The notes under the pieces were generated by a model, which was not told the DNA's origin, did no database searches, and saw only the letters and a list, made by a program, of their open reading frames with translations. Below are positions 1 to 8,298 of a stretch of 64,000 nt of DNA, piece after piece (the stretch's first letter is position 1; every line of letters starts with the position of its first letter). A program made the position numbers and the translations under genes. Source of the DNA: Martelella mediterranea (lineage in GTDB: Bacteria; Pseudomonadota; Alphaproteobacteria; Rhizobiales; Rhizobiaceae); assembly GCF_004342225.1 (NCBI RefSeq), contig NZ_SMAR01000002.1, forward strand, positions 186,001 to 250,000. Direction: 5' to 3'.

Positions 1-648
1 CGTCTGATCGATGAGGGGCTTTTCCCCTATACCAAGCGCTATCTCGGTACACTGCGCAATCACTTCTCCACGCTTGGGGTGAACGGCATCAATGAAATGA
101 TCCGCAATTTCACCGATAACCGCGAGGACATCACCACTGAGGAAGGCTATGCACTGGCGCTGAGACTGCTCGACCATGTGCGCGAAAAGATCGTCTCCTA
201 TCAGGAAGAAACCGGTCACCTCTACAATCTGGAAGCCACACCCGCTGAAGGCACGGCGCACCGTTTTGCGCGTGAGGACCAGAAGCGTTTCCCCGGCATC
301 ATCCAGGCCGGTACGGAAGAACAGGCCTATTACACCAATTCCAGCCAGTTGCCCGCCGGTTTCACCGATGATCCCTTCGAAGCCCTTTCGCGGCAGGAGG
401 CCTTGCAGAAGAAATACACCGGCGGCACGGTTTTGCACCTTTATATGGGATCGCGGCTTTCGTCCGGTGAGGCCTGCAAAAACCTCGTGCGCCGCTCTCT
501 GGAAAATTTCCGCCTGCCCTACATCACCGTCACGCCCACATTCTCGATCTGCCCGAAACACGGCTACATTGAGGGTGAGCATCAGTTCTGCCCGAAATGC
601 GATGCGGAACTGATCGAACGCAAACGTCAATCCTGTGTCGAATGCTAG
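1..648 (+). CDS. nrdD: Anaerobic ribonucleoside-triphosphate reductase, large part (C-terminal end only; 5' cut by window)
   Basis: The frame is open from base 1 and reads RLIDEGLFPYTKRYLG and GVNGINEMIRNFT, which are typical class III ribonucleotide reductase sequence. The enzyme makes deoxyribonucleotides from NTPs without oxygen. Near the end is the cysteine-rich zinc region (CPKHGY, then CPKC, with two further Cys in the last five residues). In ordinary NrdD proteins the glycyl-radical segment (RVxGYxRP) follows directly in the same chain; here the chain stops at 648 and that segment is on the next, separate gene (672-875). The gene is therefore one half of a split NrdD. The family and role are clear; only the last 215 residues are visible. 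Confidence 0.93.
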   Translation, partial: RLIDEGLFPYTKRYLGTLRNHFSTLGVNGINEMIRNFTDNREDITTEEGYALALRLLDHVREKIVSYQEETGHLYNLEATPAEGTAHRFAREDQKRFPGIIQAGTEEQAYYTNSSQLPAGFTDDPFEALSRQEALQKKYTGGTVLHLYMGSRLSSGEACKNLVRRSLENFRLPYITVTPTFSICPKHGYIEGEHQFCPKCDAELIERKRQSCVEC

Positions 649-671
649 AATAGTCCCCGAAAGGAACCGAA

Positions 672-875
672 ATGTCCGTTCTTGAGAAAACCCGGCCCGC
701 TGATGCGCAGATCACGCTTACCGATGAAGAACGTCAGCCCTGCGAAATCTGGACCCGTGTGATGGGTTATCACCGTCCGGTTTCGTCTTTCAACCGAGGT
801 AAGAAGGGTGAGTTTGCCGAGCGTCTTTATTTCAAGGAGGCGTCTAATGACGCAGAAACAGGTCAGCGCCGCTGA
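672..875 (+). CDS. Separate glycyl-radical segment of anaerobic ribonucleotide reductase (small NrdD subunit)
   Basis: This is a 67-residue protein. Its residues 22-50 match the extreme C-terminus of full-length NrdD: PCEIWTRVMGYHRPVSSFN followed by a GK..EF..R tail. Gly32, in RVMGYHRP, is the expected site of the stable glycyl radical that NrdG makes. Residues 1-21 look like a linker that a full-length enzyme does not have. An AAAGGAA ribosome site precedes the ATG, and the 3' end overlaps the start of nrdG by 29 bases, which suggests coupled translation. Inference: it docks on the NrdD body encoded just upstream, much as the small protein YfiD supplies a spare radical domain to pyruvate formate-lyase. 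A simple frameshift is unlikely because both partners carry extra residues at the break. Confidence 0.85.
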   Translation: MSVLEKTRPADAQITLTDEERQPCEIWTRVMGYHRPVSSFNRGKKGEFAERLYFKEASNDAETGQRR

Positions 876-1509
876 CCTGAGGGTTGGCGGTTTCGAACCG
901 TTCTCGCTATGCGACTGGCCTGGCAAGATCGTCGCCACGGTATTCTGTCAGGGATGCCCATGGCGATGCCCCTATTGCCATAACCCTGCGCTTTGCGAGG
1001 CCGATGCAGAAACGGATTTCGATTTTTCCGAGATTCTCGATTTTCTCAAAAACCGTCGCGGGCTTCTGGATGGCGTTGTCTTTTCCGGCGGCGAGCCGAC
1101 ACTGCAAAAAGCCCTGCGTCCGGCCATTGAGGCCGTGCGCAGCATGGGCTTTCAGATTGGGCTTCACTCTGCCGGACCATATCCCGAGCAACTGAATGCG
1201 GTTCTGCCACTGATCGACTGGATCGGTCTCGACTTCAAGGCGCCCTTTGGTGCCTATGACCGGATGACAGCCACACCAAAAAGCGGAAAACGCGCCTTTG
1301 CCAGCCTGCGCCATGTGCTTGCAAGCGGTGTTGCGCATGAAATCAGGACAACGGTGCATCAGGATCTGATGAGTGAAATGGAACTGGGCCTTCTGAAAAA
1401 TGAACTGACGGCGCTTGGGGCTGGGCCGCCGGTCATTCAGAATTTTCGCGAAACCGGTGTAGACCGGCAACGCCTGGATGCCGCTCTTAAAGAACGCAAC
1501 ACTGGTTAG
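847..1509 (+). CDS. nrdG: Anaerobic ribonucleotide reductase activating protein (radical SAM)
   Basis: A 220-residue radical S-adenosylmethionine enzyme. The iron-sulfur cluster motif C-x3-C-x2-C is Cys37, Cys41 and Cys44 (GCPWRCPYCHNP). FSGGEPTLQ further on is the typical SAM-binding GGE motif. It uses reduced flavodoxin and SAM to place the radical on the glycine of NrdD, here presumably on the small separate subunit. I chose the ATG at 847 because AAGGAGG lies six bases upstream; the frame is open further upstream but that part overlaps the small gene. Length fits the longer (about 230 residue) NrdG type found with oxygen-sensitive reductases of proteobacteria. Confidence 0.92.
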   Translation: MTQKQVSAADLRVGGFEPFSLCDWPGKIVATVFCQGCPWRCPYCHNPALCEADAETDFDFSEILDFLKNRRGLLDGVVFSGGEPTLQKALRPAIEAVRSMGFQIGLHSAGPYPEQLNAVLPLIDWIGLDFKAPFGAYDRMTATPKSGKRAFASLRHVLASGVAHEIRTTVHQDLMSEMELGLLKNELTALGAGPPVIQNFRETGVDRQRLDAALKERNTG

Positions 1510-1522
1510 GCGGCTTTTGCAC

Positions 1523-2272
1523 TCAGCCCTGCGGCTGAAGGCGGCCGGTTTTGCGCGCCACCGCACGCTCCAGCATGACAAACGCATCATGGATCAAAAG
1601 CGCCAGAACGCCCACCACCAGCCCGCCTTGAAGCACGAAGGCCGTGTTGTTGGACAATAACCCGGCAATAATGACCTCGCCCAGCGTTTTCGCAGCCACC
1701 GTGGAGCCGATAGTGGCTGTTGCCAGCGATATGACAACAGACAGTCTGACGCCGGCAAGAATGACGGGGAAGGCGAGGGGAAATTCAACCTGAACCAGCT
1801 TTTGCGCCTCGGTCATACCGGCACCCCGCGCCGCTTCGGAGACATTACCCGGCAGATTTGTGAGACCGGTCAGAGCGTTTTCGAAGATCGGCAGAAGGCC
1901 ATAAAGAAACAGCGCGATCAGGGTCGGGATTGGTCCGAAGCCAAACACCGGTACTGCCAGAGCCAGAACCGCGACAGGCGGAAAGGTCTGCCCGATATTG
2001 GCAATTGACCGTGAGAGCGGAAGAAACTCGCTACCCGAAGGACGCGTGACAAGGATTGCGAGGCTGACGGAAAAGAGCGTGGCTGCAACCGTTGCTGCGG
2101 CGACAATCGCCAGATGGCTCAATGTCAGAGAAAGCAGGCTTGTCTGCGTGTAGATCGCTGGCGCGCCGTTCTGTGCAAAGGGCCTGAAAAGCGGAGCGAA
2201 GGCCTGCGGCCAGAGAATAAAGGCCACAAGCAGTATCAGCAATCCAATCCTGATCGCTGCTGAAATTTTCAT
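1523..2272 (-). CDS. yehW: Osmoprotectant ABC transporter permease, YehW/OsmW-like
   Basis: A 249-residue hydrophobic protein with about six membrane segments and the permease signature EAARGAGMTEAQKL...EFPLAFPVILAG. It is the last gene of a minus-strand operon osmF-yehY-yehX-yehW and its ATG overlaps the stop of the ATPase gene by four bases. Gene order and sizes match the enterobacterial yehZYXW (osmF) glycine-betaine importer. The system imports compatible solutes, usually with low affinity. It shares the betaine/choline (OpuB/OpuC) permease fold; the exact substrate cannot be read from sequence. Confidence 0.85.
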   Translation of the reverse strand: MKISAAIRIGLLILLVAFILWPQAFAPLFRPFAQNGAPAIYTQTSLLSLTLSHLAIVAAATVAATLFSVSLAILVTRPSGSEFLPLSRSIANIGQTFPPVAVLALAVPVFGFGPIPTLIALFLYGLLPIFENALTGLTNLPGNVSEAARGAGMTEAQKLVQVEFPLAFPVILAGVRLSVVISLATATIGSTVAAKTLGEVIIAGLLSNNTAFVLQGGLVVGVLALLIHDAFVMLERAVARKTGRLQPQG

Positions 2273-3207
2273 GAGCGCGGCTCCGCAGCATGCCGGATAA
2301 GCGCCTCACGCGTGACCCGACCGATGACGACACCATCTTTCTCCACCGGGACTGCATCACGACCGGACCAGAGCGTTTCGGCCAGCGCATCTTTCAGGCT
2401 GGCCGTACACGAAACCGGATTTCCATCCGCTACGCCTTGTTCAACCAGATTTTCACACGCTTCCAGCGACAGCATACGAAAAGCCTTGTCACCGGTGCCA
2501 AGAAGCACATTGACGAAGTCGCTGGCAGGATTGGTGATGATTTCGGCAGGGGGGGCATATTGCAGAAGCTTGCCGTCACTCATCACGGCGATTTTGTGCC
2601 CCAGCATGATGGCTTCATCCATATCATGGGTCACAAGCACAATCGTGGTAGAGAAGCGCCGCTGAATGTCGAGCAGATCTTCCTGCGCCTTGGCCCGGAT
2701 GATCGGATCAAGCGCACCGAAAGGCTCATCCATCAGAAGAAGGTGCGGTTCAGCCGCCAGCGCCCGGGCAACACCGATCCGCTGCTGTTCTCCCCCCGAA
2801 AGCTCAAACGGCATACGATCCCGATATTGCCCCGGCTCAAGATGAAACAGGCTCAACAACTCATCCACGCGATCATGCCTGCGCTTTTTATCCCACCCAA
2901 GCAGTTTTGGCACCGTCGCGATATTTTCCGCCACAGTCCGGTGCGGAAAAAGGCCATGTCCCTGAATGGCGTAGCCGATACCGCGTCTTAGTTCATAATC
3001 CGGCAGATCGCGATTGTCGCGGCCGTCAATGCGGATCGTGCCCGCGCTTGGCTCCACAAGGCGGTTGATCATCCGCATCAGGGTTGTCTTGCCAGAACCT
3101 GACGTGCCGACAATAGCTGCCAGTTCACCGCTTTCAATTGTCAGTGACACATTTTCGACGGCGTTCTGATCGCCGTAGATTTTGGAGATGGCATCAATCT
3201 CAATCAT
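2269..3207 (-). CDS. yehX: Osmoprotectant ABC transporter ATP-binding protein, YehX/OsmV-like
   Basis: A 312-residue ABC ATPase. Walker A is GTSGSGKTT (residues 34-42), the ABC signature is LSGGEQQRIGVARAL, and Walker B is LLLMDEPFGALDP followed by the switch histidine in VLVTHDMDEA. The C-terminal third ends with a single CBS-like stretch (VEKDGVVIGRVTREALI), as in OpuCA/OsmV proteins that sense ionic strength. It energises the two permeases encoded on either side and overlaps both neighbouring genes by four bases, so the three products are probably made in fixed ratio. Confidence 0.9.
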   Translation of the reverse strand: MIEIDAISKIYGDQNAVENVSLTIESGELAAIVGTSGSGKTTLMRMINRLVEPSAGTIRIDGRDNRDLPDYELRRGIGYAIQGHGLFPHRTVAENIATVPKLLGWDKKRRHDRVDELLSLFHLEPGQYRDRMPFELSGGEQQRIGVARALAAEPHLLLMDEPFGALDPIIRAKAQEDLLDIQRRFSTTIVLVTHDMDEAIMLGHKIAVMSDGKLLQYAPPAEIITNPASDFVNVLLGTGDKAFRMLSLEACENLVEQGVADGNPVSCTASLKDALAETLWSGRDAVPVEKDGVVIGRVTREALIRHAAEPRS

Positions 3208-4406
3208 GCCGACGCTCCTTTTTTGCCATGGGTCTGGCTGATTTCAACAAGCGCATCGAGAATGATGGCCGCGGCAAACGCCATGCCGACAACCGGCATG
3301 GCTCCAAGAAGAACAAGATCGGTTGCCGTTTGTGCGATACCCTGAAATACGAAGGTGCCATATCCCCCGCCGCCGATCAGTCCGGCAATCACGGCAAGGC
3401 CGATATTCTGCACCAGGACGATGCGAATACCGGTGAGGATAACCGGGAAAGCCAGCGGCAGCTCAATCTGCAGCAGAAGCTGCCGGACAGTCATACCCAT
3501 CCCGCGTGCAGCATCGCGCGCATCCGGCGGCACGCTATCGAGCCCGGCAACAGTGTTCGAAACGACAGGCAGAAGCGAATAGGCATAGAGCGCCACAATC
3601 GCCGGTGCAAAGCCAATACCGGCAATGCCGAGTTCGGCCGCCCCCGGGATATTTCGCCCGATCCAGGCAAGCGGCGCAATCAGCAACCCGAACATCGCAA
3701 TGGAAGGGATCGTCTGTAAAACGTTCAGGATGTTGAGGATTGTTGCCCGCACTTTCGGCACACGATAGCACAAGATGCCGATTGGAATGCCCGTCACTGT
3801 AGCGGCACCAACAGAACCGAATGTCAAAAGAAGATGCGTGCGCCCCTCACGCCAGAATGCATCGGAGCGGTTGGCATATTCTTTCAGAATTGAAAGTTGG
3901 TCCCAGGCACCGGACCAAAGCAGGAGGCCGATTGCCGCCATACCGATGGCCAGAAATGCCATACGCTTCATCGGTGCGAGCTGCTTGCGCACAATGGCGT
4001 CCGCCATGGCGATGGAAAAGCCGAACAGCATGATCCAGAAGCCGCCACCGGCTGAAACACGCGCATAAGGATTATCATCCGGCATCAGAAAATAGCCCGA
4101 ACGCCCGACCATAAGTGCCAGGACAGCCATCATGGCAACGCTGACGCCAAGCCGCAGATTAACAGGGGAACGCAGGACCATAACCACGATCGCAGCGATG
4201 ATTGTGGCCATCAGACACACACCCTGCCATCCGGGCAGGGCGGACCAGATCATCTTCGGCGTAGCCTCAACGATCCGATTGGCAGCAAACTGGCTGAAAG
4301 GCTGAAGAAACAGGCCTGCCAGAATAATCAGCGCAAGAATCATCCCGAGTTTGTCGAAGGCCGTGAGGCTCTTTTGCGCTGTTGTTGAAGCACTGATCGC
4401 TGACAT
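3204..4406 (-). CDS. yehY: Osmoprotectant ABC transporter permease, long YehY/OsmY-type subunit
   Basis: A 400-residue permease, longer than YehW because of an N-terminal extension with several extra membrane segments before the transport domain (signature DAARGMGMTVRQL...ELPLAFPVILTG near residues 300-330). This two-permease arrangement, one long and one short, is characteristic of the yehZYXW/osmF system. It sits 183 bases downstream of the binding-protein gene osmF, and a GC-rich hairpin lies in that gap, so it may be made at a lower level than the binding protein. Confidence 0.85.
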   Translation of the reverse strand: MSAISASTTAQKSLTAFDKLGMILALIILAGLFLQPFSQFAANRIVEATPKMIWSALPGWQGVCLMATIIAAIVVMVLRSPVNLRLGVSVAMMAVLALMVGRSGYFLMPDDNPYARVSAGGGFWIMLFGFSIAMADAIVRKQLAPMKRMAFLAIGMAAIGLLLWSGAWDQLSILKEYANRSDAFWREGRTHLLLTFGSVGAATVTGIPIGILCYRVPKVRATILNILNVLQTIPSIAMFGLLIAPLAWIGRNIPGAAELGIAGIGFAPAIVALYAYSLLPVVSNTVAGLDSVPPDARDAARGMGMTVRQLLLQIELPLAFPVILTGIRIVLVQNIGLAVIAGLIGGGGYGTFVFQGIAQTATDLVLLGAMPVVGMAFAAAIILDALVEISQTHGKKGASA

Positions 4407-4536
4407 GGCGTGCCTTTTGGCTATCGGTCGGGCTCGGCTCTGGTCGAGGGGTGCATGGCGGCGTCACAAGCGCCATGCCTTGCTTGTAAAGTGTAAGCAG
4501 CACGCTCTCCTGTCTCAAGTTCCGCGCACTTGAAGA

Positions 4537-4568
4537 CCCCCGGATGGTAGATAATAAATATCCGGGGG
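4537..4568 (-). terminator. Intercistronic hairpin between osmF and yehY
   Basis: CCCCCGGAT and its exact complement ATCCGGGGG form a nine-base-pair stem around a 14-base AT-rich loop, 22 bases past the osmF stop. There is no U-run after it on the minus strand, so it is more likely an mRNA-stabilising or partly attenuating hairpin than a full terminator. It would allow osmF, the periplasmic binding protein, to be made in excess over the membrane subunits. Confidence 0.5.
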
Positions 4569-4589
4569 ATCGCGGAGATTGCCCGCCTC

Positions 4590-5507
4590 TTATTTCAAAA
4601 AACCATTCTTCATGAGATAGTCCTTCGCCACCGCATCGGCAGGCTCACCACCCACCTGAACGCGGCCATTGAGGTTCTGAAGCGTTTCAAGCGTCAGGCC
4701 TTCAAAGATCGGTTCGAGAATGTCGGCGATCTCGGGATATTCTTCCAGCCGCACTTCGCGGATGATCGGTGTCGGCAGATAAACCGGCTGAACGCCCTTG
4801 TCGTCTGTCATCACCTTCAGACCGGAAGGCGCAATACCACCATCAGTACCATAAACCATTGCAGCATTTGCGCCGGACGTCTTTTTGGCCGCCGCCGCAA
4901 TGGTGGCCGCCGTATCACCGCCGGAAAGCTGGATCAGCTGACCGGACGAAAGGTCGAAACCATAAGCCTTTTCAAAAGCGGGAAGTGCTGCCGGAGAGGT
5001 CACAAACTCCGAAGAGGCTGCCAACTTGATCGTGCCGCCATCGGCAACATAAGCGCCGAAATCACTCATCGTCGAGAGATTTTCCGGATCGGCAACGTCC
5101 TTGCGCACGGCGATGGCCCAGGTGTTGTTGGCATCGGCCGGGGTGAGCCAGACAATCTTGTTGGCATCATAGTCGAGCTTCTTGGCTTCCTCATACCCCG
5201 CTTCAGGCTTATTCCAGACGGGAAGGTCCGTCTTGTTGAAGAAGAAGGCGGCATTGCCGGTATATTCCGGATAGATGTCGATCTGTCCTTGCGTTATCGC
5301 CTGACGCACGATCGGTGTTCCACCGAGCTGGATCTTGTTTTCAGTCGGAATATCGTTGGCTTTCAGTGCCTGAAGGATGATGTTGCCAAGCACACCACCC
5401 TCGGTATCGATCTTCGATGAAACGACGACGGGCGCCGCAACAGCGGTCGAAGCTGCGGCAAAGGCGGCGATCGCCAGAGCGCCTGTCAGTTTGAAAATTC
5501 GGTTCAT
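4590..5507 (-). CDS. osmF: Osmoprotectant ABC transporter substrate-binding protein, OsmF/YehZ-like
   Basis: A 305-residue periplasmic protein with a clear Sec signal peptide (MNRIFKLTGALAIAAFAAAS, cleavage expected after AVA). The mature part reads VVVSSKIDTEGGVLGN and GTPIVRQAITQGQIDIYPEY, typical of the OpuC/OsmF binding-protein family for glycine betaine and related quaternary amines. It is the first gene of the minus-strand transporter operon. A GAGAGGGA ribosome site precedes the ATG. It diverges from a DeoR-type regulator, but that regulator belongs to the sugar operon on its other side. Confidence 0.88.
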   Translation of the reverse strand: MNRIFKLTGALAIAAFAAASTAVAAPVVVSSKIDTEGGVLGNIILQALKANDIPTENKIQLGGTPIVRQAITQGQIDIYPEYTGNAAFFFNKTDLPVWNKPEAGYEEAKKLDYDANKIVWLTPADANNTWAIAVRKDVADPENLSTMSDFGAYVADGGTIKLAASSEFVTSPAALPAFEKAYGFDLSSGQLIQLSGGDTAATIAAAAKKTSGANAAMVYGTDGGIAPSGLKVMTDDKGVQPVYLPTPIIREVRLEEYPEIADILEPIFEGLTLETLQNLNGRVQVGGEPADAVAKDYLMKNGFLK

Positions 5508-5986
5508 GGAACTTGTCCCTCTCTTGCCAGCTCTCTCTCATATCCTCAAAGAGCCGTTTCCTGTTCGCCCTGAAGACTGTTCACTCAGTCCGGATCATCA
5601 GGCGGTGCGCGTGCAAACATGTCACAGGCTTCCGCGAATAGTCAGAAGTCCAGTGTCTGATATCTAACTTTGTCCGATCCGGCTTCAGCTTCAACCCTTA
5701 TCGGCGCATTTCAGTAAAATCAGTCAGATAGGGCACGAAATACGTCTGGCGATAGCAAAGGTGTTTTTTTCTGAAGGTGCGCCTGACATCGCTCGTTCAA
5801 TGTTTGTAAACCCGCTTCATGAAATCAGGACCAAGACGATAGATATGAAAGGGATTGAAAGAAATTGATCATTTCCGATCATCATATGATCGTTATATCG
5901 CAGATATAAGCCATTTCGGTTTTCAAACTTGCATGAACGATCAATCATATGCAAAATAGTACGTGCAATTCCGCTGGGAGGACGGA
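5508..5986. promoter_or_regulatory. Divergent intergenic region osmF / deoR-type regulator
   Basis: A 479-base non-coding stretch between two divergently transcribed genes. It must hold promoters for both. No RNA gene or long coding frame is visible. The right-hand 110 bases are AT-rich and contain the paired CGATCA..CATATG motifs described separately. The left half shows nothing I can name. Confidence 0.5.
5876..5951. promoter_or_regulatory. Candidate operator pair for the DeoR-type regulator
   Basis: The first site, 5876-5892, is a perfect palindrome: CGATCAT, three bases, ATGATCG. A second, imperfect copy (CGATCAATCATATG) starts at 5938, 62 bases downstream, about six helical turns. Paired, phased sites of this kind are common for DeoR-family repressors, which often loop DNA. 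They lie just upstream of the regulator's own start, so autorepression together with the downstream sugar ABC genes is the simplest reading. This is inference from pattern only. Confidence 0.45.
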
Positions 5987-6772
5987 GTGGCCGAATTATA
6001 CAGACATGAAAAAATTATTTCTTTGCTGGCAGAACGTCCGTTTCTGTCCGTCACAGAGCTGACGGATGAGACCGGCGTGTCCGCCGCCACGATTCGCCGT
6101 GACATAGACAAGCTGGAAAAGGCCGGTTTTGGTCAGCGTGTGCACGGTGGTATTGCTTCAGAGCGCCTGCATGCGGCACGCCGCGCTGTTCCACTTCCAT
6201 TCATGGAAAATCGAGACATTGCCGTCGATGCCAAGCGCGCCATTGCGCGTTCCGCAGCTGGCCTTGTACGTGACGGAACGGCAATCATCGTTCATGGCGG
6301 CTCCACCTGCTTTCATTTCGGTGTTGCTGTCGCAAACCGCAACCTGCGCATTTTCACGCATTCCATGCCGCTGGCCGCCTACCTGGCAGAGTTTGGCCAG
6401 TGTCAGCTGACCATGGGCGGTGGCGACCTTCATCGTGAACCCGGCATCATCTATGACCGGTTTTCAGATGAGCGTGCCTTCTACGCCTCTCAGTTTTTCG
6501 CCGGAGCACTCGGCATCAATCGTGAAGGGCTTCTGGAAAGCAATCCGCTGCTGGTTCAGCTGACACGCGAGATGGCAGCTTATGCCAACGAAACCATCGT
6601 ACTGGTCGACAGCCGGAAGTTTTCCGAGAGGCCCTCCACACTTTCTCTTCCATTTACCCAGATCCGCAGACTGGTGACCGATGACGGCCTCAGCGATGCC
6701 AATGCCCGGATGCTTGAAGAGGAAGGGATTCAATACATCATCGCCGAACAAAAGGGAGATGCCACGCCATGA
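5987..6772 (+). CDS. DeoR-family transcriptional regulator
   Basis: A 261-residue regulator. The N-terminal 60 residues hold the DeoR winged helix-turn-helix (HEKIISLLAERPFLSVTEL, then TIRRDIDKLE), followed by a sugar-phosphate sensor domain with the DeoR pattern VHGG, TAIIVHGGSTC and LVDSRKF. I chose the GTG at 5987 because GGGAGGAC lies just upstream; an earlier in-frame GTG at 5963 has no ribosome site. Its stop overlaps the ATG of the ABC ATPase by four bases, so it is co-transcribed with the transporter. It probably represses that operon and responds to a phosphorylated sugar derived from the imported substrate. The effector is unknown. Confidence 0.88.
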   Translation: MAELYRHEKIISLLAERPFLSVTELTDETGVSAATIRRDIDKLEKAGFGQRVHGGIASERLHAARRAVPLPFMENRDIAVDAKRAIARSAAGLVRDGTAIIVHGGSTCFHFGVAVANRNLRIFTHSMPLAAYLAEFGQCQLTMGGGDLHREPGIIYDRFSDERAFYASQFFAGALGINREGLLESNPLLVQLTREMAAYANETIVLVDSRKFSERPSTLSLPFTQIRRLVTDDGLSDANARMLEEEGIQYIIAEQKGDATP

Positions 6773-8298
6773 GCAGTGCCAAAGCTGAACCTGTTCTGGA
6801 AATGCAGGGGATTTCAAAAACCTTCGGGCCGATGAAGGCACTCTCAGGGGTCGCAATCACCGCCTATGGCGGAGAAGTGCATGCCCTGATGGGGGAAAAT
6901 GGTGCCGGCAAATCCACCCTTATGAAGATCCTGTCCGGTGCCTATACGCCGGATCGGGGTGGCTCAATCAAAGTTGGCGGCGAGACCGTTCCGCACGGAA
7001 AGCCCAAGGCAGCCAAGTCGATGGGCGTCGCTGTTATTTATCAGGAGCTTTCTCTGGCACCAAATCTGACCGTTGCTGAGAATATTTTCCTCGGCAACGA
7101 GCGGGCCAGCCACGGCATCGTCAACCGCGGACAGATGCGCACGGCAACCCAGCCGATCCTCGACCGTCTCGGCGTCGACTTCAAGCCGTCGACACCCGTA
7201 AGCGATCTTTCGCTCGGTGAGCGACAGCTTGTTGAGATTGCCCGCGCGCTGTCCGCCAACGCGCGGATCATCGTCATGGACGAGCCGACAACATCTCTGA
7301 CGAGTCGGGAGACCGATCGGCTTTTCGACGTGATTGCTGGCCTGAAAGCCGAAAACATTGCCATTATCTACATCAGCCACCGAATGGAGGAAATCTACCG
7401 CCTCGCCGATCGGTGTTCGGTTCTGCGCGACGGCAGCTATATCGGCACGCTTCAGCGCGAAGAACTGAACGCCGACCGCCTCATCTCCATGATGGTCGGC
7501 CGCGAGCTGTCCTCATTCTACAAAAAGGAGCATGTCGAGCATGATGATGAGGACATTGTGCTCGAAGTGCAGAACATGAGCGATGGCCACAAGGTGAAGA
7601 ACTGCTCGTTCACTGTACGAAAAGGCGAAGTTCTGGGGGTTTCAGGGCTGGTGGGTTCTGGCCGCACCGAACTCGCACGCCTGATCTACGGTGCAGACAA
7701 AGCAACCAGCGGCAAGGTTTTTCTCAATGGAAAGGACGTAACGCCGCAAAGCCCGAGTGTCGCGCTTAAGAAGGGCATTGTTTATCTGACAGAAGACCGG
7801 AAGAAACTGGGACTGTTTCTGGATATGACGATTGCCGACAACATCAACATCTGCGTCATGGCGGGCGACAGCGGCACCGCAGGAATCCGCAATTTCCAAA
7901 CAGCGCGGGAACGCGCGGAAAACGAGGTCGAAAGGCTTTCCATCCGTACGCAGTCACCCTTCGTCAATGTCGGCTCGCTTTCCGGGGGCAACCAGCAGAA
8001 AGTGCTTCTGGGCCGCCTTCTGGAGGTCAGTCCGAAGGTGATCATTCTTGATGAACCCACGCGTGGCGTCGATGTCGGCGCAAAATCCGAAATCTATCGT
8101 CTGATCGATATGATGGCCCGTCAGGGCATGGCAGTGGTGATGATCTCCAGTGAATTGCCGGAAATCATCAACGTTGCCGATCGTGCGCTCGTGATGCGCG
8201 AAGGCGCAATTGCCGGAGAAGTCACATCCGGTCCCGGACAACCCATCGATCAGGAAGCAATTATGCGGCTTTCAACCGGAACCCGGTCGGCCGCCTGA
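6769..8298 (+). CDS. Sugar ABC transporter ATP-binding protein, tandem-domain (RbsA/MglA type)
   Basis: A 509-residue protein with two ABC domains. The first has Walker A GENGAGKST (residues 42-50), signature LSLGERQLVEIARAL and Walker B IIVMDEPTTSL. The second has the degenerate Walker A usual for this family (LVGSGRTELARL), signature LSGGNQQKVLLGRL and IILDEPTRGVDVGAKSEIY. This is the architecture of ribose, galactose and xylose importers of the CUT2 class. It works with the permease and binding protein that follow. The sugar cannot be named from sequence; a pentose or polyol would fit the DeoR regulator. Confidence 0.92.
   Translation: MSSAKAEPVLEMQGISKTFGPMKALSGVAITAYGGEVHALMGENGAGKSTLMKILSGAYTPDRGGSIKVGGETVPHGKPKAAKSMGVAVIYQELSLAPNLTVAENIFLGNERASHGIVNRGQMRTATQPILDRLGVDFKPSTPVSDLSLGERQLVEIARALSANARIIVMDEPTTSLTSRETDRLFDVIAGLKAENIAIIYISHRMEEIYRLADRCSVLRDGSYIGTLQREELNADRLISMMVGRELSSFYKKEHVEHDDEDIVLEVQNMSDGHKVKNCSFTVRKGEVLGVSGLVGSGRTELARLIYGADKATSGKVFLNGKDVTPQSPSVALKKGIVYLTEDRKKLGLFLDMTIADNINICVMAGDSGTAGIRNFQTARERAENEVERLSIRTQSPFVNVGSLSGGNQQKVLLGRLLEVSPKVIILDEPTRGVDVGAKSEIYRLIDMMARQGMAVVMISSELPEIINVADRALVMREGAIAGEVTSGPGQPIDQEAIMRLSTGTRSAA

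Follow-up and report, generated by a model that had tools for sequence, protein, structure and literature searches.

The 64,000-nucleotide stretch of Martelella mediterranea DNA analyzed here (contig NZ_SMAR01000002.1, positions 186,001 to 250,000; hereafter the window) opens on a locus that, judged from its sequence, very probably encodes a constitutive two-chain class III ribonucleotide reductase (RNR), with the catalytic body and the glycyl-radical loop carried by separate proteins. Class III RNRs are usually described with the radical on their own C-terminus. Comparison of genomes gives good support that the two-chain variant is real and widespread, and its mechanism is what we infer from the same material.

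The window opens inside nrdD, the gene of which starts upstream, and contains the C-terminal 215 residues of its product on the forward strand (1..648; G000:C2, locus L001). The stop codon of this body, TAG at 646-648, follows FSICPKHGYIEGEHQFCPKC and a short tail, with FSICPKHGYIEGEHQFCPKCDAELIERKRQSCVEC preceding the stop at 648, and the zinc-ribbon segment CPKHGYIEGEHQFCPKC (550..600, + strand), which fused relatives have as well and which we take to hold the zinc ligands familiar from NrdD structures, stays on the body; NrdD ends at 648 behind its zinc region, as the original prediction had it. The same prediction had placed the glycyl-radical segment on a separate 67-residue gene with its own ribosome site and an overlap with nrdG, and this arrangement was found as described. 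The small open reading frame (ORF; 672..875, + strand) begins with ATG at 672, 23 nt after the body stop and in a different frame, is preceded by a ribosome-binding-type AAGGA (661..665, + strand, recognized in the sequence), and was assigned as the protein with the glycyl-radical loop based on its match to Pfam NRDD positions 531-562, a 34-row alignment and dN < dS. The predicted radical glycine, Gly32, lies in the motif RVMGYHRP (codon 765..767, + strand) and is invariant in the 34-row alignment. The gene for the radical-SAM activase (847..1509, + strand) starts within the small ORF, overlapping it by 29 nt, and its product is of the NrdG2 type (TIGR02495, 190.7 bits vs. a cut-off of 131.15). 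After nrdG, ORFs on the - strand (1523-5507) resemble by reading an osmoprotectant-type ABC transporter (permeases, ATPase, and binding protein).

The 680-aa body scored 1123.6 bits with PRK08270 (cut-off 548) and covers positions 2-532 of Pfam NRDD (PF13597; 562 positions, cut-off 26.2 bits) with 570.6 bits, and the small ORF covers positions 531-562 with 28.6 bits in the genome scan and 31.4 in the protein scan, so that the two pieces together tile the family. Both the NRDD/PRK08270 profile and the radical-SAM activase NrdG expected of a class III RNR are present, and a radical glycine is found at the locus in RVMGYHRP of the small ORF, not at the C-terminus of the catalytic chain, which ends at profile position 532. 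NRDD was the only Pfam match listed for the small protein up to E 1, with no match to Gly_radical (PF01228). By body identity, the nearest named records were Martelella mediterranea L024, with 91% over residues 35-697, and L023, titled Marinicella sp. W31, with 92% but over residues 468-697 only. A full-length NrdD elsewhere in the genome, named in the original prediction as an observation that would speak against it, was looked for with an NRDD profile scan of the assembly (4.3 Mb in 105 contigs, with a listed completeness of 100%); none was found, nor any NRDD match beyond the two pieces. The other RNR genes found were a PF02867 gene and an adjacent PF00268 gene on contig C7 (G000:C7:24771-27268), which form the aerobic-type pair, and the sole PF01228 match of the genome was at G000:C42:22855-23175, in a 757-aa frame of a pyruvate formate-lyase (PFL)-type glycyl radical enzyme.

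The split was found well beyond this genome. Among close relatives (41 genomes including this one), 11 genomes from 2 genera had NRDD matches, and all 11 were split. The search proposed earlier, for genomes with a truncated NrdD and a short neighbour, showed the arrangement to be common: when the small protein was used to scan genomes of named species, at least 466 stretches were confirmed, and of the best 80, which, having been selected for their match to a split protein, are no fair sample of split vs. fused forms, 78 had a split body with a separate small ORF. One exception (L065) had a single frame, but its nrdG was frame-broken, and the other (L040) had no body nearby; in some of the named loci the bodies were interrupted or cut by contig ends (L023, L051). 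The hosts of these 80 were mainly alpha- and betaproteobacteria, plus one MAG each under the labels Verrucomicrobia, Trueperaceae, and Deltaproteobacteria. Wider samples, counted by hand from listings with only part of the rows read in sequence, contained both forms: 29 of 289 genomes in the class sample had NRDD matches (21 split, 8 fused), and 66 of 397 in the phylum sample (19 split, 46 fused, 1 weak partial). A stop between body and small ORF placed G172 (L178) and G603 (L140) with the split forms, and was also confirmed in G080, G447, and G685. The phylum of the Trueperaceae record (100 genomes) had one genome with both pieces and two with weak partial matches, that of the Verrucomicrobia record (240 genomes) had at least 159 genomes with NRDD matches, and phage records gave 2 weak matches. 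Some split bodies (L039, L044-L046, L005, L067, and others) match the window NrdD only from about residue 117-135, as if their N-terminal ATP-cone were missing.

Plasmid records with a match numbered 28, and the 8 that were examined comprised five split loci (Cupriavidus necator H16 pHG1, Bradyrhizobium japonicum, Sulfuricurvum kujiense, Paracoccus denitrificans, and C. metallidurans), two fused ones (Actinomyces oris and Acidiphilium multivorum) and one lone small gene (Allochromatium vinosum). Two of the records, those of Paracoccus and C. metallidurans, come without a gene table and were read from the sequence; in the 4 of these 6 plasmids with a split or lone small gene that have such a table, RefSeq calls the short genes nrdD, which bears out the earlier suspicion that short NrdD-like proteins already sit in databases undescribed. 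The nrdDG locus on pHG1, found here to be split, belongs to a strain (C. necator H16, under the epithet eutrophus) in which NrdDG is essential for complete denitrification according to a second-hand report in the part of PMC2864759 consulted.

The small gene is not always next to the body. In G560 it shares a contig with the body but lies, together with nrdG, ~10 kb upstream of it, and in the draft assemblies G269, G293, and G127 body and small gene are on different contigs (nrdG accompanies the small gene in G269), the small gene not being found in the stretch fetched after the body. Four genomes (G099, G280, G115, and Magnetospirillum fulvum, G688) carry another small gene at a distance from nrdDG, and four small copies had no body nearby (L104, L155, L157, and L166). 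The L166 copy, from M. fulvum and at the same place as L040, is a lone small gene (3937-4098) directly before class I nrdA (4189-6108) and nrdB (6093-7220). The L104 copy (3992-4201), annotated nrdD, lies on A. vinosum plasmid pALVIN01, on which no NrdD body was found.

Such copies bear on the reading that the small protein is mainly a spare part, one of a renewable pool from which the body is resupplied once oxygen has cleaved its radical protein, in the manner of YfiD/GrcA and pyruvate formate-lyase. This would add to the two-chain arrangement and does not compete with it, and we regard it as possible, though somewhat short of probable. The second small genes apart from nrdDG and the lone pALVIN01 copy speak for it, as does the statement, in the portion of PMC8683613 available, that other glycyl radical enzymes may have spare parts; however, most genomes seen have one copy, adjoining nrdG, and an obligate subunit would fit equally well. 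The extra unlinked copies in a few genomes are compatible with swapping, without showing it.

The lone copies, one of them before class I nrdA/nrdB, could also mean that the body no longer needs the small protein or that the latter serves another enzyme. We consider this unlikely, as the small gene sits between body and nrdG in 76 of the 78 named split loci and its motif is of the NrdD kind, not PFL-type. In these 76 loci nrdG overlaps or follows within 400 nt, the exceptions being L035 (3738 nt) and L096 (no nrdG found). A fusion of small protein and NrdG, considered for L006, L067, L079, and L087, was rejected, NrdG being in another frame in all four.

The layout of the 101 distinct split loci supports the preferred reading of two chains. 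All three frame relations between body and small ORF occur (29/26/46), the body stops are TGA, TAA, and TAG in 67, 27, and 7 loci, and the gaps between the two reach 376 nt, the median being 20 nt (the lowest value, -65 nt, probably reflects a wrongly chosen start). In 96 of the 101, the chosen start has a Shine-Dalgarno match of 4 nt or more ahead of it, vs. 28.4 when the same 14-mers are shuffled, a figure that is biased upward because the match was partly used in choosing starts. A single chain made by programmed frameshifting or stop read-through over the gap is accordingly very improbable: the two ORFs do share a frame, separated by at least one stop, in 29 of the 101 loci, but the three frame relations, the several stops in some gaps, gaps of up to 376 nt, and the Shine-Dalgarno-type site before the small ORF stand against it, and unlinked cases such as G560 exclude it as a general mechanism. 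An intein or intron was rejected, as the 23-nt gap in the window is too short.

The small gene is under purifying selection. Compared with 10 relatives, the small ORF of the window has a dN of 0.10-0.33, with a dS of 1.1-2.5 in 7 of the comparisons (not computable in 3). The glycine is kept in all 101 split and all 11 fused rows; of 10 further rows without a nearby body, 9 inform on the glycine (L040 is excluded), and L153, near a contig end, is not firm. E20, R21, Q22, C24, E25, W27, T28, R29, V30, M31, G32, Y33, H34, R35, and P36 are invariant in the 34-row alignment. Single errors do occur (L065 with its frame-broken nrdG, and stops inside the L184 and L185 bodies). With purifying selection on the small ORF, an intact body (the PRK08270 score above) and the same break in many independent assemblies, however, an assembly artefact or a decaying pseudogene is scarcely credible, and the recurrence of the break in 10 other close relatives and many other species leaves very little room for a sequencing error here. 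Conservation, selection, the unlinked and extra copies, and the failure to find a full-length NrdD in the assembly thus uphold the core of the original prediction, a class III RNR with a separate glycyl-radical protein.

The invariant ERQ is part of a lead-in that seven fused relatives from the alphaproteobacteria (L167-L169 and L171-L174) lack; in these the motif follows directly after the zinc ribbon (e.g., CPQCGAKTKVWTRVMGYFRP in L169), and the fused Actinomyces and Acidiphilium proteins read CEVWTRVMGY, without ERQ. We infer that the lead-in may be a docking or start extension tied to the split.

Other break points were seen in the 19 stretches fetched from the Verrucomicrobiota search, most of which were picked for looking broken. 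In 12 of them (L181-L183, L186-L192, L198, and L199) the body ends at about GEHxECP and a separate MAKCGEKTEVYSRVCGYFRP-type ORF is present, a break that puts the last zinc-ribbon cysteine on the small protein; L193 and L194 are broken as in the window, and four are fused (L184, L185, L196, and L197), of which L184 and L185 have the body interrupted by a stop. The remaining one, L195, as well as G172 (L178) and G603 (L140), carries the motif in its RRITGYLVGTLDRFN form on an ORF of its own; this form marks another NrdD type. In L195 a nrdG-like ORF follows the small ORF. The break inside the ribbon in genomes of this search and the split of another NrdD type in three genomes indicate that detachment recurred. 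A quick IQ-TREE phylogeny (76 bodies, 500 columns) requires 7 switches between the split and the fused state, of which well-supported branches force 6, and the count does not give their direction. Single fused proteins amid split ones (L107, L108, and L185) suggest re-fusion. The fused L185 (G734) reads ECPMAQCKIKCEIYSRVVGY, as if the start Met of the small protein had been kept on re-fusion, a weak sign because its body has an in-frame TAA. A broader proposal, which we find doubtful as a whole, is that class III RNRs have repeatedly detached the glycyl radical, at two or more break points and in two or more NrdD types, one form building its zinc ribbon from two chains, and that the small proteins form an exchangeable radical-cofactor pool, which is replenished after oxygen damage while the large chain is kept, some genomes having dedicated spares, e.g., before the M. 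fulvum class I nrdA/nrdB.

In the two-chain enzyme proposed here, both chains would be translated separately, the large one holding the ATP-cone, the barrel, the finger-loop cysteines (SMCCR), and the zinc ribbon, and the small one the glycyl-radical loop, preceded by the LxDxERQPC extension seen in split forms. NrdG2 would make the radical on Gly32 of the small chain, which would dock in the cleft that the C-terminal tail occupies in ordinary NrdD, and the radical would pass from the small chain to a finger-loop cysteine by interchain hydrogen transfer. According to the text available of PMC11226230, NrdD of Prevotella copri has a mobile radical domain that was not seen with dATP, an observation that lends mechanical plausibility to a detached form.

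Structure predictions with AlphaFold gave no confident fold for the small protein alone (34 rows; pLDDT 56.2, pTM 0.16). L099, a natural same-frame locus with a single stop, was read through as a stand-in for a co-fold (102 rows), and the resulting chain had a mean pLDDT of 74.8 and a pTM of 0.67; the pLDDT is below 50 at 711-729, the region of the glycine (713), so this model does not show docking. Its top Foldseek matches were class III RNRs (9d3x_A, E 2.7e-31), with Thermotoga maritima class III RNR chains at a TM of ~0.7 by target length. By sequence, the nearest solved chains to the body are the class III RNRs 4coi and 4u3e, and the small protein had no PDB sequence match up to E 1.

The locus resembles single-chain NrdD (PRK08270, TIGR02487, and Pfam NRDD) in that body and small protein span the whole profile and NrdG2 adjoins, but here the break falls after the zinc ribbon and before the glycine loop, and each side of it has extra residues. 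YfiD/GrcA, as presented in the part of PMC8683613 seen, is likewise a small separate glycyl-radical protein able to serve a larger enzyme, and the one at the present locus might be exchangeable in a similar way; YfiD backs up a complete pyruvate formate-lyase, whereas here a complete NrdD was not found and the small protein matches NRDD, not PF01228. The split class II RNR NrdJa/NrdJb of Pseudomonas aeruginosa is also a two-chain RNR in one operon, and both proteins are required in vivo, as given in the sections of PMC4520616 at hand; by the same source it differs in being B12-dependent and in that NrdJb does disulfide exchange, not radical storage. In addition, it is the class II barrel PF02867 that is split there, whereas the locus here is NRDD.

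In the accessible portions of PMC4390871, PMC11528403, PMC4493059, PMC9669993, PMC3019208, PMC5645315, and PMC12338860 there is no mention of a split NrdD, and none was found described in the titles and abstracts listed by searches of the open-licence literature, although an earlier description is possible. One RNR phylogeny dropped all sequences of <400 residues, as stated in the part of PMC9531940 available; surveys that discard short sequences would miss the small chain.

NrdJab is stated in the text seen of PMC4520616 to be the only split RNR outside viruses, and the split NrdD contradicts this printed claim. The two-chain form appears to be common in alpha- and betaproteobacteria and is also present in genomes of the Verrucomicrobiota search, and, as a natural system of two parts, it would allow radical installation, docking, and oxygen repair to be tested one by one.
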